From an uncultured Pelagibacteraceae bacterium (lineage in GTDB: Bacteria > Pseudomonadota > Alphaproteobacteria > Pelagibacterales > Pelagibacteraceae), in NCBI GenBank assembly GCA_902595625.1, contig CACJQQ010000008.1, positions 1 through 53,673 on the forward strand: a DNA stretch of 53,673 nucleotides, read 5' to 3'. Each line of letters opens with the position of its first letter. Position 1 is the first letter of the stretch. Under the pieces are notes generated by a model. The model ran no database searches. It was not told the origin of the DNA and saw nothing but the letters and a program-made list of their open reading frames with translations. The position numbers were made by a program, and so were the translations under genes. Of the stretch, positions 22,866-25,544 are shown piece by piece.

Positions 22866-24158
22866 TTAAGCAGCTAATGCTTGTTTAATGTCTGCAATGA
22901 TATCATCTGGATGTTCGATACCAATTGACAGTCTTACATAACCTGGTGTTACACCTGCTGCTGCTAACGCTGCATCATCTAACTGACTGTGCGTTGTAGT
23001 AGCTGGGTGAATTGCTAAACTTCTAGCATCACCAATATTAGCAACGTGATATAACATTTTTAAGTTATCGATGAACTTAGCACCTGCCTCTTTTGTGCCT
23101 ACATCCATTCCAACTAAAGAACCGTATCCACCTTGCATATATTTTTTAGCTCTCTCTTTAATCTCACCTTGGTGGTTAGTAGGATAGATTACATTCTTAA
23201 CTTTCTTTTGTGTTTCTAAGAATGAAACTACTTTCTCTGCATTACTACAGTGTTGTTTCATCCTGAGAGCAACTGTTTCCAAACCTTGGATAATTTGGAA
23301 TGCATTAAATGGACTTAAAGGAGCACCTAAGTCTCTCAATAAAACCACTCTTGCTCTGATCACAAAAGGAATGTTAGCTCCTGTTAACTGAGGAACTGCA
23401 TCTGCCCATATTGCACCACCATAACTTTGATCAGGTTCATTTATTAATGGTTGTCTTTTTCTGTCTTTAATCCAGTCAAAGTTTCCACCATCAACAATTA
23501 TTCCACCAATTGAAGTTCCGTGACCACCAATATACTTAGTCAATGAGTGCATTACAATTGCAGCTCCGTGAGCTAAAGGTTTGCAAATTACTGGTGAAGC
23601 CGTGTTATCGATAATTAAAGGAATACCTTTTTTTCTACCGATATCAGAAACTTCTTTGATTGGAAAAACACGAAGATAAGGATTAGGACAAGACTCACCG
23701 TAGTAAGCTCTTGTTTTATCATCAGTCACTTTTTCAAAGTTTTTAGGATCCGCAGGATCTGCAAATCTAACTTCAATACCTTGTTGTCTTAAAGTATTTT
23801 TAAATAAGTTAACCGTACCTCCGTATAAGTCAGTTGAAGCAACAATATTATCTCCAGCTTGTGCTAAGTTTTGAATACACATTGCTGATGCTGCTTGACC
23901 TGAACCTACCGCTAATGCAGCTACACCACCTTCAAGTGCTGCAACTCTTTTCTCTAGTACATCAACCGTTGGGTTCATGATACGCGTATAGATGTTACCA
24001 AATTCCTTAAGACCAAATAAATTTGCAGCATGCTCTGCATTTTTAAATTGGTAAGAAGTTGTTTGATAAATTGGAACTGCTACAGCTGTAGTAGTAGGAT
24101 CAGCTCTGTAATCACTACCATGTAAGCCAATAGTTTCCGGATGTTTAAAATCAGCCAT
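22866..24158 (-). CDS. metY: O-acetylhomoserine sulfhydrylase (Cys/Met metabolism PLP enzyme)
   Basis: Makes homocysteine (or methionine from methanethiol) from O-acetylhomoserine. PLP Lys208 lies in VMHSLTKYIGGHGTSIGG. The N-terminal ETIGLHGSDYRADPTTTAVAVPIY and the YTRIMNPT motif are typical of the MetY/MetZ branch, as is the 430-aa length with the long insert near residues 220-250. It is downstream of bhmT in one transcription unit under the SAM riboswitches. A 16-codon ORF overlaps its start. A G-rich ribosome binding site (AAGGGGGG) lies about 7 bases before the ATG. Confidence 0.93.
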   Translation of the reverse strand: MADFKHPETIGLHGSDYRADPTTTAVAVPIYQTTSYQFKNAEHAANLFGLKEFGNIYTRIMNPTVDVLEKRVAALEGGVAALAVGSGQAASAMCIQNLAQAGDNIVASTDLYGGTVNLFKNTLRQQGIEVRFADPADPKNFEKVTDDKTRAYYGESCPNPYLRVFPIKEVSDIGRKKGIPLIIDNTASPVICKPLAHGAAIVMHSLTKYIGGHGTSIGGIIVDGGNFDWIKDRKRQPLINEPDQSYGGAIWADAVPQLTGANIPFVIRARVVLLRDLGAPLSPFNAFQIIQGLETVALRMKQHCSNAEKVVSFLETQKKVKNVIYPTNHQGEIKERAKKYMQGGYGSLVGMDVGTKEAGAKFIDNLKMLYHVANIGDARSLAIHPATTTHSQLDDAALAAAGVTPGYVRLSIGIEHPDDIIADIKQALAA

Positions 24159-24201
24159 TGATTTCCCCCCTTACTGTTTCTCTTGTCGTTTCTTTTGTCA
24201 T
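24151..24201 (-). CDS. putative 16-aa leader ORF overlapping the metY start
   Basis: ATG at 24201 has a perfect GGAGG (24210-24214) 8 bases upstream, directly after the bhmT stop codon. The peptide is MTKETTRETVRGEING. It stops with TGA at 24151-24153, which overlaps codons 2-3 of metY in another frame. The placement mirrors the leader ORF before bhmT. It could couple metY translation to a preceding ORF; it may also be chance. Confidence 0.4.
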   Translation of the reverse strand: MTKETTRETVRGEING

Positions 24202-24214
24202 TATTATAGCCTCC

Positions 24215-25273
24215 TTACGCTACGTTTCCATACTCTTTCATGTGTTTCGGTATCTTTTTATCCGAACCATACATGAAATGTTTACTCATATTTTCCCTAA
24301 ATCTGCTTGCTGGAACTCTTAAACCAATTGCTTCTGCAACCTCACGTATATGCATTGGGCTAGCTCCACAACAAACACCGATGTACTTGACTCCAAGATC
24401 AAATACTTCTTTTGCGAAATTTCCAATCTCATATCTATTGCATTGCAATGGATCCATAGCAGTAGGGAAAGTTCTGCCATGAGGAGATGGACAATTACAT
24501 CCATTATTATCTGGAAGATTGAAAAATGTTGGATGCTGTTCTGTTGTTCTGTAAGGAACTGGTAAAGCAGCAACATGACATTTAAGTTCTTTTCTAATTT
24601 CTTTAATGTAAGGAAGCATTGTAGCAGGACCTCTAAAACAGTTTAATCCCACAACATCAGCTCCTAATTCTTCTAACTTCTTACATGTTTCAAGAATAGT
24701 ATAACCATCTCTCATTTTATTTTCACCCATTGGTGAAATAGTAATTACAGATGGTAAACCAGATTTTTTAATTTCTTCTAACGCGGCAAAAGCTTCTTCA
24801 GCATAATAGAAAGTTTCACCAATAATAAAATCAGCTCTTTCTTCTTTTGCCCACTGAACCATTTCAGCAAACATACTTTTTACTTCTGCTTGTACTCTTG
24901 GATTATTTTCTTCCCAAATATTACTGTTAGAAATATTTCCTGCCATTAAGCTAACACCTAAACCTTTTGGCGGATTGTCAGCACATTTTCTAGCAATTCT
25001 TAATGCAGCTCTATTTAAAGGTTCTAACAAATGCTCTTTATCTATAACTCTCATTTTTTCTCTATGACCGTTATAAGTAAAAGCTTGAACTATATTTGAG
25101 CCTGCATGTTGAAATTCTTTATGAAGATTTTCTAAAACTTCAGGATGCTCTAGTGCTACTTCAGGAACAAATTCGCCAGAAGTTAAATAACCTCTTCGTT
25201 CCATTTCAAATAAATAACCTTCAGCACATATTAAAGGCTGATCTTTTAGTGTATCTAATAAAATATTACTCAT
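24215..25273 (-). CDS. bhmT: betaine-homocysteine methyltransferase-like protein
   Basis: Zinc methyltransferase that moves a methyl group from a donor such as glycine betaine (or a related compound) to homocysteine, giving methionine. The homocysteine S-methyltransferase domain has its three zinc-binding cysteines at Cys212 (GLNCFRGP), Cys301 and Cys302 (GVCCGASP). The length, 352 aa, fits BHMT-like enzymes. The ATG overlaps the TGA of a 20-codon leader ORF. Its ribosome binding site GGAGAG is inside a hairpin. Expression is expected to fall when SAM is high, through the upstream SAM-II and SAM-V elements. metY follows after 56 bases. Confidence 0.92.
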   Translation of the reverse strand: MSNILLDTLKDQPLICAEGYLFEMERRGYLTSGEFVPEVALEHPEVLENLHKEFQHAGSNIVQAFTYNGHREKMRVIDKEHLLEPLNRAALRIARKCADNPPKGLGVSLMAGNISNSNIWEENNPRVQAEVKSMFAEMVQWAKEERADFIIGETFYYAEEAFAALEEIKKSGLPSVITISPMGENKMRDGYTILETCKKLEELGADVVGLNCFRGPATMLPYIKEIRKELKCHVAALPVPYRTTEQHPTFFNLPDNNGCNCPSPHGRTFPTAMDPLQCNRYEIGNFAKEVFDLGVKYIGVCCGASPMHIREVAEAIGLRVPASRFRENMSKHFMYGSDKKIPKHMKEYGNVA

Positions 25274-25332
25274 TTTCTCTCCATCTTAACCGGAGAGAGA
25301 TGAAATCTATTGAGGGAGTTTAACGATCTCAT
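25270..25332 (-). CDS. putative 20-aa leader peptide ORF under SAM-V control
   Basis: ATG at 25332 lies 6 bases after the GGAG (25339-25342) that ends the SAM-V aptamer. The peptide reads MRSLNSLNRFHLSPVKMERK. Its TGA (25270-25272) overlaps the bhmT ATG as ATGA. The SAM-V ribosome binding site is thus placed ideally for this ORF and is about 65 bases from bhmT. Within the ORF, TCTCTCC pairs with GGAGAGA over 7 bp and hides the bhmT ribosome binding site. Translation of the leader would open it. The arrangement is seen directly; the coupling is inference. Confidence 0.6.
   Translation of the reverse strand: MRSLNSLNRFHLSPVKMERK
25276..25298 (-). promoter_or_regulatory. hairpin sequestering the bhmT ribosome binding site
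   Basis: Minus strand TCTCTCC (25292-25298) pairs with GGAGAGA (25276-25282) around a 9-base loop. The 3' arm is the bhmT Shine-Dalgarno, ending 2 bases before the ATG. It lies wholly inside the 20-codon leader ORF. Confidence 0.6.
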
Positions 25333-25338
25333 CTACTT

Positions 25339-25396
25339 CTCCTTTTTAGTACTTCGGCGAAATGCCAGGTGTACAATATGGTTCAAATACCCGGTT
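25339..25396 (-). promoter_or_regulatory. SAM-V riboswitch
   Basis: Minus strand. CCGGGT pairs with ACCTGG (6 bp, one G-U) around the loop GTATTTGAACCATATTGTAC region. A GGC/GCC mini-hairpin follows, then GTACTAAAAAGGAG, where GTAC can form the pseudoknot and GGAG is a ribosome binding site. SAM-V is known from marine alphaproteobacteria as a translational switch that hides the ribosome binding site when SAM is bound. Here the exposed site serves the 20-codon leader ORF. Confidence 0.85.
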
Positions 25397-25412
25397 TAAT
25401 TTTAGATTGTTC

Positions 25413-25442
25413 CAAAAAAAAACCACCGACTAAAGCGGTGGT
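25413..25442 (-). terminator. intrinsic terminator controlled by SAM-II
   Basis: Minus strand ACCACCG/CGGTGGT (7 bp) with loop CTTTAGT, followed by nine Ts. CGCTTTAG (25430-25437) in its 5' arm and loop is perfectly complementary to CTAAAGCG (25458-25465) at the 3' end of the SAM-II aptamer, giving a mutually exclusive antiterminator. Confidence 0.88.
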
Positions 25443-25455
25443 CTGTTAGACTTAC

Positions 25456-25508
25456 GACGCTTTAGCTGGATTTATTAAGCGCCCGCAAGTTGCCTTAACT
25501 CGGCGCTA
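25456..25508 (-). promoter_or_regulatory. SAM-II riboswitch
   Basis: Minus strand. P1 is GCGCC/GGCGC. The conserved 3' part TTAATAAATCCAGCTAAAG matches the SAM-II pattern (TGATAAA then AGCTAAA) and forms the H-type pseudoknot. It starts at about the predicted transcription start and is followed by an intrinsic terminator, consistent with SAM-dependent transcription termination ahead of bhmT-metY. Confidence 0.88.
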
Positions 25509-25513
25509 GTTGG

Positions 25514-25544
25514 CTTATATCAATTATTCTAGTAATTTGTCAAT
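25514..25544 (-). promoter_or_regulatory. promoter of the bhmT-metY unit
   Basis: A consensus TTGACA (25539-25544) is followed by a -10 region GATATAAG (25514-25521), with 17-19 bases between depending on the hexamer chosen. Transcription would begin near 25507, right at the SAM-II aptamer. Confidence 0.65.

Follow-up and report, generated by a model that had tools for sequence, protein, structure and literature searches.

The leader of the bhmT gene in SAR11, which are among the most abundant marine bacteria, raises the question of how a riboswitch might govern a ribosome site that is not its own. SAM-V as described in PMC6061858 and PMC9481103 hides the Shine-Dalgarno (SD) sequence that serves the gene. 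In the locus considered here, from an uncultured member of the Pelagibacteraceae (assembly GCA_902595625.1, contig CACJQQ010000008.1; the whole stretch analysed, 53,673 nucleotides, is called the window), 65 nt instead separate the SAM-V GGAG from the bhmT ATG, and bhmT has a second GGAG of its own, which bears out the earlier view that the SAM-V GGAG is not the ribosome site of bhmT. The original prediction, made from the letters of the window, joined the two by a three-step gate in which SAM-II controls termination, SAM-V controls initiation on a short leader ORF, and translation of that ORF opens the bhmT site. Two parts of this proposal survive, namely that the bhmT site lies in a hairpin and that SAM is expected to act on it at a distance, but the leader-peptide step does not stand as a general mechanism. 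What that reading lacked is a rival pairing in which the GGAG strand takes part. With this pairing in hand, the spacer behind SAM-V can be modelled as what it probably is, a translational expression platform working by strand exchange.

Architecture of the leader

All leader elements in the window lie on the minus strand. The SAM-V aptamer (25336-25401) scores 71.4 bits against RF01826 (gathering 41, E 8.8e-10), and its linker holds a CC (25380-25381), assigned here after PMC6061858 as the presumed P2a partner of GG 25342-25341 when SAM is bound. Membership in the class is carried by an aptamer above the gathering score and by a CC that could pair with the two G's of the SD; the typical trait of an SD directly serving the regulated gene, which lies outside the aptamer model, is absent in the window. 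The tandem leader opens with an aptamer (25442-25516) followed by an intrinsic terminator recognized by pattern scan and from its sequence (25414-25444; stem 25444-25420, T run to 25414), in the same order of SAM-II, terminator and SAM-V as the tandem bi-mechanism leader (PMC9481103, PMC11508383). This order had been foreseen and holds for the terminator and SAM-V, but the first element is best called SAM-II-like, at 18.4 bits against RF00521 and below the gathering score of 36. Other SAR11 leaders also score low against this model (25.6 bits in L022, 28.8 bits in L164), and at E 0.5 no match to it is listed for L017, L079, L021 or L003. Given that SAM-II within the full tandem RNA is reported as unresponsive to SAM in vitro (PMC11508383), the first step of the gate, assigned to SAM-II, is in doubt.

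Six bases behind the SAM-V GGAG (25342-25339) stands an ATG (25332-25330), base for base as first read. It opens a 20-codon leader ORF, MRSLNSLNRFHLSPVKMERK (25270-25332), identified as an open reading frame and often not kept elsewhere, whose TGA overlaps the bhmT ATG as had been noticed. The bhmT ribosome site (25270-25282) comprises a GGAG at 25282-25279 and the start codon at 25273-25271. The gene itself (24215-25273) encodes a bhmT-type homocysteine S-methyltransferase (PF02574, E 1.5e-38), its product reaching 80.7 bits against the NCBIfam betaine-homocysteine model, below the cut-off of 338, and is followed by metY, an O-acetylhomoserine sulfhydrylase (22866-24158; TIGR01326, E 1.6e-170, over cut-off).

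Another account of such a leader would be ordinary direct occlusion, either because bhmT really begins at 25332 or because the spacer is a decayed remnant. Direct placement is indeed common, being labelled for 85 metY, 10 bhmT and 5 mmuM among 211 distinct SAM-V stretches, and the occurrence of SAM-V directly before bhmT in other SAR11 (for example L021, L023, L026 and L030) counts against the leader-peptide gate as a general mechanism. However, the frame opened at 25332 differs from that of bhmT and terminates at bhmT, and paired arms are kept in spacers across genera; direct occlusion in this leader is therefore highly improbable.

Two predicted helices that share one strand

The 7-bp hairpin originally placed over the bhmT ribosome site (25298-25276) is present, and the fold extends to 13 pairs (8 + 5) between a middle strand (25307-25292) and the GGAG and AUG of bhmT (-13.7 kcal/mol; 5/200 shuffles as stable). 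The same middle strand forms a second helix, of 16 pairs, with the stretch 25342-25325, which holds the SAM-V GGAG, its adjoining arm and the ATG at the start of the leader ORF (-17.8 kcal/mol, z -3.4, 0/200 shuffles as stable). This second helix was absent from the original prediction, is better supported than the bhmT hairpin, and uses the bases that close the bhmT site. Folded jointly, the upper nine pairs of the second helix can stand alongside the SD hairpin, and competition falls to the GGAG. Translational riboswitches with anti-SD and anti-anti-SD helices control a downstream SD through mutually exclusive pairings; predicted here are, likewise, two mutually exclusive helices with a shared strand, one of which closes the gene's SD. 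The role of the middle strand as complement of both partners is drawn from the folds, the pairing of the arms and the blocking calculations.

A strand-exchange mechanism can be modelled on these pairings. The SD strand of SAM-V itself (GGAG plus arm) would serve as a decoy of the gene's ribosome site, the middle strand being complementary to both. When SAM is absent, the decoy GGAG would be free to capture the middle strand, thereby releasing the bhmT ribosome site, and the decoy, being transcribed first, could already hold the middle strand. When SAM is present, the aptamer would lock the decoy's GG into P2a, leaving the middle strand to cover the GGAG and AUG of bhmT and turning translation off. 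The upper decoy helix could persist throughout, with the GGAG acting as a toehold. In direct leaders P2a would hide the SD of the gene, whereas in spacer leaders it would remove the decoy instead. In leaders whose middle strand also covers the AUG of the gene, the decoy must carry an AUG too, and the ATG behind the decoy would then be mostly a by-product of mimicry.

Formation of P2a by SAM, joining the linker to the first bases of the SD, has been proposed (PMC6061858), and SAM binding has been reported for the metY and bhmT homologs of Ca. P. ubique in the same source, although P2a, at only two pairs, may be weak as a lever. We infer that SAM causes the block in the cell and that its presence is the off signal, a sign that agrees with the rise of bhmT, as mRNA and protein, under sulfur shortage, when metY and mmuM rise as well (PMC5069961). 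The co-transcriptional order may in addition favour the open state.

What was computed here are the pairings, their conservation and co-variation, and the predicted effect of blocking the decoy, with the SAM block imposed as a constraint, not predicted, and with the platform folded apart from the aptamer. In the window, opening the SD of bhmT costs 2.1 kcal/mol with the decoy free, 8.5 with its GG blocked, 9.6 with its GGAG blocked and 2.0 with four control bases blocked. Even with the decoy free the site is still mostly closed at equilibrium (about 3% open), so that the open state needs folding order or help from the ribosome. Such help is provided for in a combined reading, which keeps strand exchange as the common basis and supposes that, in the window's genus, ribosomes initiating on the released decoy contribute further to opening the bhmT site. 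Both components need a free GGAG and act with the same sign, and leader translation would overcome the closure seen at equilibrium. Against this, the leader AUG is hidden within the exchange helix, and the combined reading shares the counter-evidence considered below for translation of the leader ORF; it is possible, if rather doubtful.

The proposed exchange design across SAR11

Strand exchange as a platform in its own right was followed through relatives. A search for bhmT in 297 SAR11-family genomes matched 81 at E 1e-40 or better, second homologs counted, and outside the window's genus SAM-V stands directly before bhmT in some genomes and behind a spacer in others. Within the genus, a whole-leader search of 169 genomes matched 132, HIMB058 (L245) and many single-cell genomes among them: a spacer leads to bhmT in 18, to metY in 69 and to a metE-like gene in 2, and placement before metY is direct in 41, the remaining 2 being L135 (unparsed) and G315 (not fetched). 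A spacer is thus present in 89 of the 132. The metE-like gene (NF003317, E 5.6e-8 on a partial protein, below the model's cut-off) follows a tandem leader with an exchange platform in two genomes of the genus (L106 and L108). Two further arrangements were observed. L017 (1427-1491, minus strand) and L048 each carry another SAM-V (57.6 bits) past bhmT, immediately ahead of the gene that follows. In L051 and L161, which apparently carry a decayed leader, SAM-V, decoy and middle strand are present with neither a second site nor a parsed gene behind them.

For quantitative comparison, identical leaders were collapsed to 92 distinct SAR11 spacer leaders behind SAM-V (44 bhmT, 46 metY, 2 metE-like). 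Left out were L057 (a frameshifted direct metY leader), L051 and L161 (no gene after), L256 and L269 (spacer visible, aptamer missed by the pattern), L135 and the weak G315 match. The leaders are mutually related, and counts among them are consequently not independent. Before bhmT (n=44), the median cost of opening the SD is 1.4 kcal/mol with the decoy free, 6.9 with its GG blocked, 8.3 with its GGAG blocked and 1.2 with four control bases blocked; the corresponding medians are 0.7, 7.1, 9.3 and 0.3 kcal/mol before metY (n=46) and 0.9, 5.2, 7.0 and 0.2 kcal/mol before the metE-like gene (n=2). Blocking the GGAG lifts the opening cost of the gene's SD by at least 3 kcal/mol in 86/92 leaders, with weak effects in L019 (1.5), L028 (0.9) and L171 (0.15 kcal/mol). 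When the spacer was shuffled with the decoy GGAG and the gene's SD kept, in all 46 bhmT and metE-like leaders and 23 of the 46 metY leaders, no more than 5 of 100 shuffles matched the effect in 64/69 leaders, and none did in 55; at this 5-in-100 mark five of the 69 were no better than their shuffles (L019, L028, L289, L171 and L204). The presumed P2a partner is CC in 91/92 spacer leaders and CU in L282.

Co-variation was tested for the helix between decoy and middle strand. Among 20 dissimilar leaders, decoy and middle arms beyond GGAG/CUCC pair with a mean of -10.9 kcal/mol in their own combination and -6.5 kcal/mol when permuted, and 0/10,000 permutations were as good. In five of the 20 (L014, L084, L178, L255 and L279) at least 10 of 38 foreign pairings equalled the leader's own, perhaps owing to the placement of the arms by a simple pattern. 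The decoy ATG likewise tracks a CAT in the middle arm, as would follow from a decoy that imitates the site with which it competes: across the 92 related leaders both are present in 62, neither in 16, the ATG only in 13 and the CAT only in 1 (p 3e-9), and across the 20 dissimilar ones the counts are 6, 10, 4 and 0 (p 0.011). Altogether the design of decoy, complement and true site precedes three genes (bhmT, metY and metE-like) in five genera by label (g1, g3, g4, g6 and g9).

These arms also bear on the possibility that the SAM-V GGAG is a standby site that loads the 30S subunit, with initiation following at the bhmT ATG farther on; such a mechanism has been proposed for the SAM-II switch of Sinorhizobium meliloti metA. 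The geometry is similar, with a comparable distance from GGAG to start (cf. PMC9373788), but a standby site predicts neither co-varying decoy and middle arms nor the second GGAG found close before the gene in most leaders, and must be regarded as quite improbable.

The leader reading frame

The rival proposal, that SAM-V governs initiation at 25332 and that translation of the 20 codons opens the bhmT hairpin with restart at the ATGA, draws some strength from the window's own genus, where 14 of the 15 distinct bhmT leaders keep the frame open as far as an overlap with the start of bhmT, two different frames being used, and 14 of 15 have a GGAG-ATG spacing of 6. Further, the decoy GGAG is mostly free in the equilibrium fold of the window (0.10 kcal/mol). 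The whole stretch from this GGAG to the ORF's AUG, however, costs 7.1 kcal/mol to open, and the ORF's AUG alone 4.4, as against 0.6 for the AUG of bhmT. In metY leaders this stretch is almost unpaired (median 0.55 kcal/mol), which speaks for initiation there and implies that burial of the ORF start is a feature of the bhmT group only.

Conservation of the frame is limited. The expectation of an intact frame among close relatives fails with L092, a member of the genus whose frame ends 13 nt before bhmT. Outside the genus no ATG was found within 15 nt of the GGAG in 16/29 bhmT spacer leaders, and the similar leaders L251 and L253 differ in that one has an ATG behind the GGAG and the other does not. 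Of the metY spacer leaders, 47 out of 69 have a frame that terminates on the following start, which also favours coupling at an ATGA, but the overlap is missing from the other 22 (8 in frame, 9 reading past, 5 with an early stop). Start codon and frame are thus kept within the window's bhmT group and not across leaders at large, and the leader ORF was rejected as a general conserved element on account of missing ATGs and broken frames. Nor does the overlap itself count for much: the first bhmT codons, ATG AGT AAT, stop both other frames within 8 bases and so force it, for which reason it was discarded as evidence for coupling. The leader ORF gave no sign of coding constraint, with 3 synonymous changes to 7 nonsynonymous against 36:142 possible (p 0.44, 10 distinct sequences), and selection at the level of the peptide was accordingly set aside as unsupported.

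On this evidence a gate worked by the leader peptide is unlikely, and under strand exchange the reading frame would in most lineages probably be incidental. Coupling may nevertheless be an addition to exchange in the window's own group, and it looks more likely in four leaders from two other genera (L019 and L028 in one, L171 and L226 in another), in which frames of 44-48 codons stand directly behind the SAM-V GGAG and run into bhmT. Their peptides are similar (for example NNCSxSIK in L171 and L226), three of the four show a weak exchange effect, and the frames possibly encode a true leader peptide.

Relation to known switches

The aptamer, the P2a CC and the gene families are those of the SAM-V (RF01826) of Ca. 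Pelagibacter ubique metY and bhmT. The SAM-V coordinates of L017 and L048 fall within the HTCC1062 leader interval of PMC2704228, and the bhmT leader of HTCC1062 has a spacer too. SAM-II and SAM-V are filed under direct occlusion in a 2024 review (PMC10907184), and tandem SAM-II/SAM-V leaders have been described as direct control of translation initiation (PMC9481103); the available portions of the two tandem-leader accounts make no mention of a further platform behind SAM-V (PMC9481103, PMC11508383). Among the matches listed from the SAM-V literature such a platform is not described, and the founding description of SAM-V may cover some of it. Compared with the usual anti-SD/anti-anti-SD arrangement, the anti-anti-SD here would be the former ribosome site of the aptamer and a near copy of the site that it releases.

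The nearest functional parallel is the SAM-II switch of S. meliloti metA, in which the SD of the aptamer is needed, the start lies 74 nt downstream, the nearby AUG1 is dispensable, and a terminator lies between AUG1 and AUG2, a standby mechanism having been proposed (PMC9373788). If strand exchange is correct, the same logic could explain that control at a distance. A search for SAM-II among alphaproteobacteria matched 134/241 genomes, from which 30 loci were kept; two are metA-like by sequence among the few parsed.

It is about an even question whether, taken as a whole, a direct-occlusion class has, in SAR11, converted the ribosome site within its aptamer into a toehold decoy before three genes in five genera, with mimicry explaining the stray starts and a translated leader of 44-48 codons added in some members of two genera. 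Neither the spacer leaders that make up the majority of those matched in the window's genus (89/132) nor the published Ca. P. ubique bhmT leader fits the mechanism described for SAM-V, and constructs ending at the SAM-V GGAG would lack the half that switches. Likewise, an ATG behind an aptamer's SD need not be a start codon. More broadly, a route is suggested by which a direct-occlusion switch might gain an expression platform through copying its own ribosome site.

A second leader ORF and a tmRNA

A second leader ORF, of 16 codons, MTKETTRETVRGEING (24151-24201, minus strand), was read from the sequence before metY; in the window it shares 8 bases with the beginning of metY, whose probable ribosome site lies within it. 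A 16-17-codon form of it occurs in 28/29 bhmT-metY loci, several of which are one genome under two ids, L248 being the locus in which it was not found, and a frame of 14-15 codons is found in 69/69 metY spacer leaders, where it stands behind the riboswitch-controlled site. Its synonymous to nonsynonymous changes number 11:17 against 28:103 possible (p 0.055), and coupling to a downstream gene is more plausible for it than for the ORF at 25332-25270. Elsewhere in the window, positions 1155-1454 of the minus strand match the alphaproteobacterial tmRNA model at 220 bits, and the permuted tmRNA model matched there as well.
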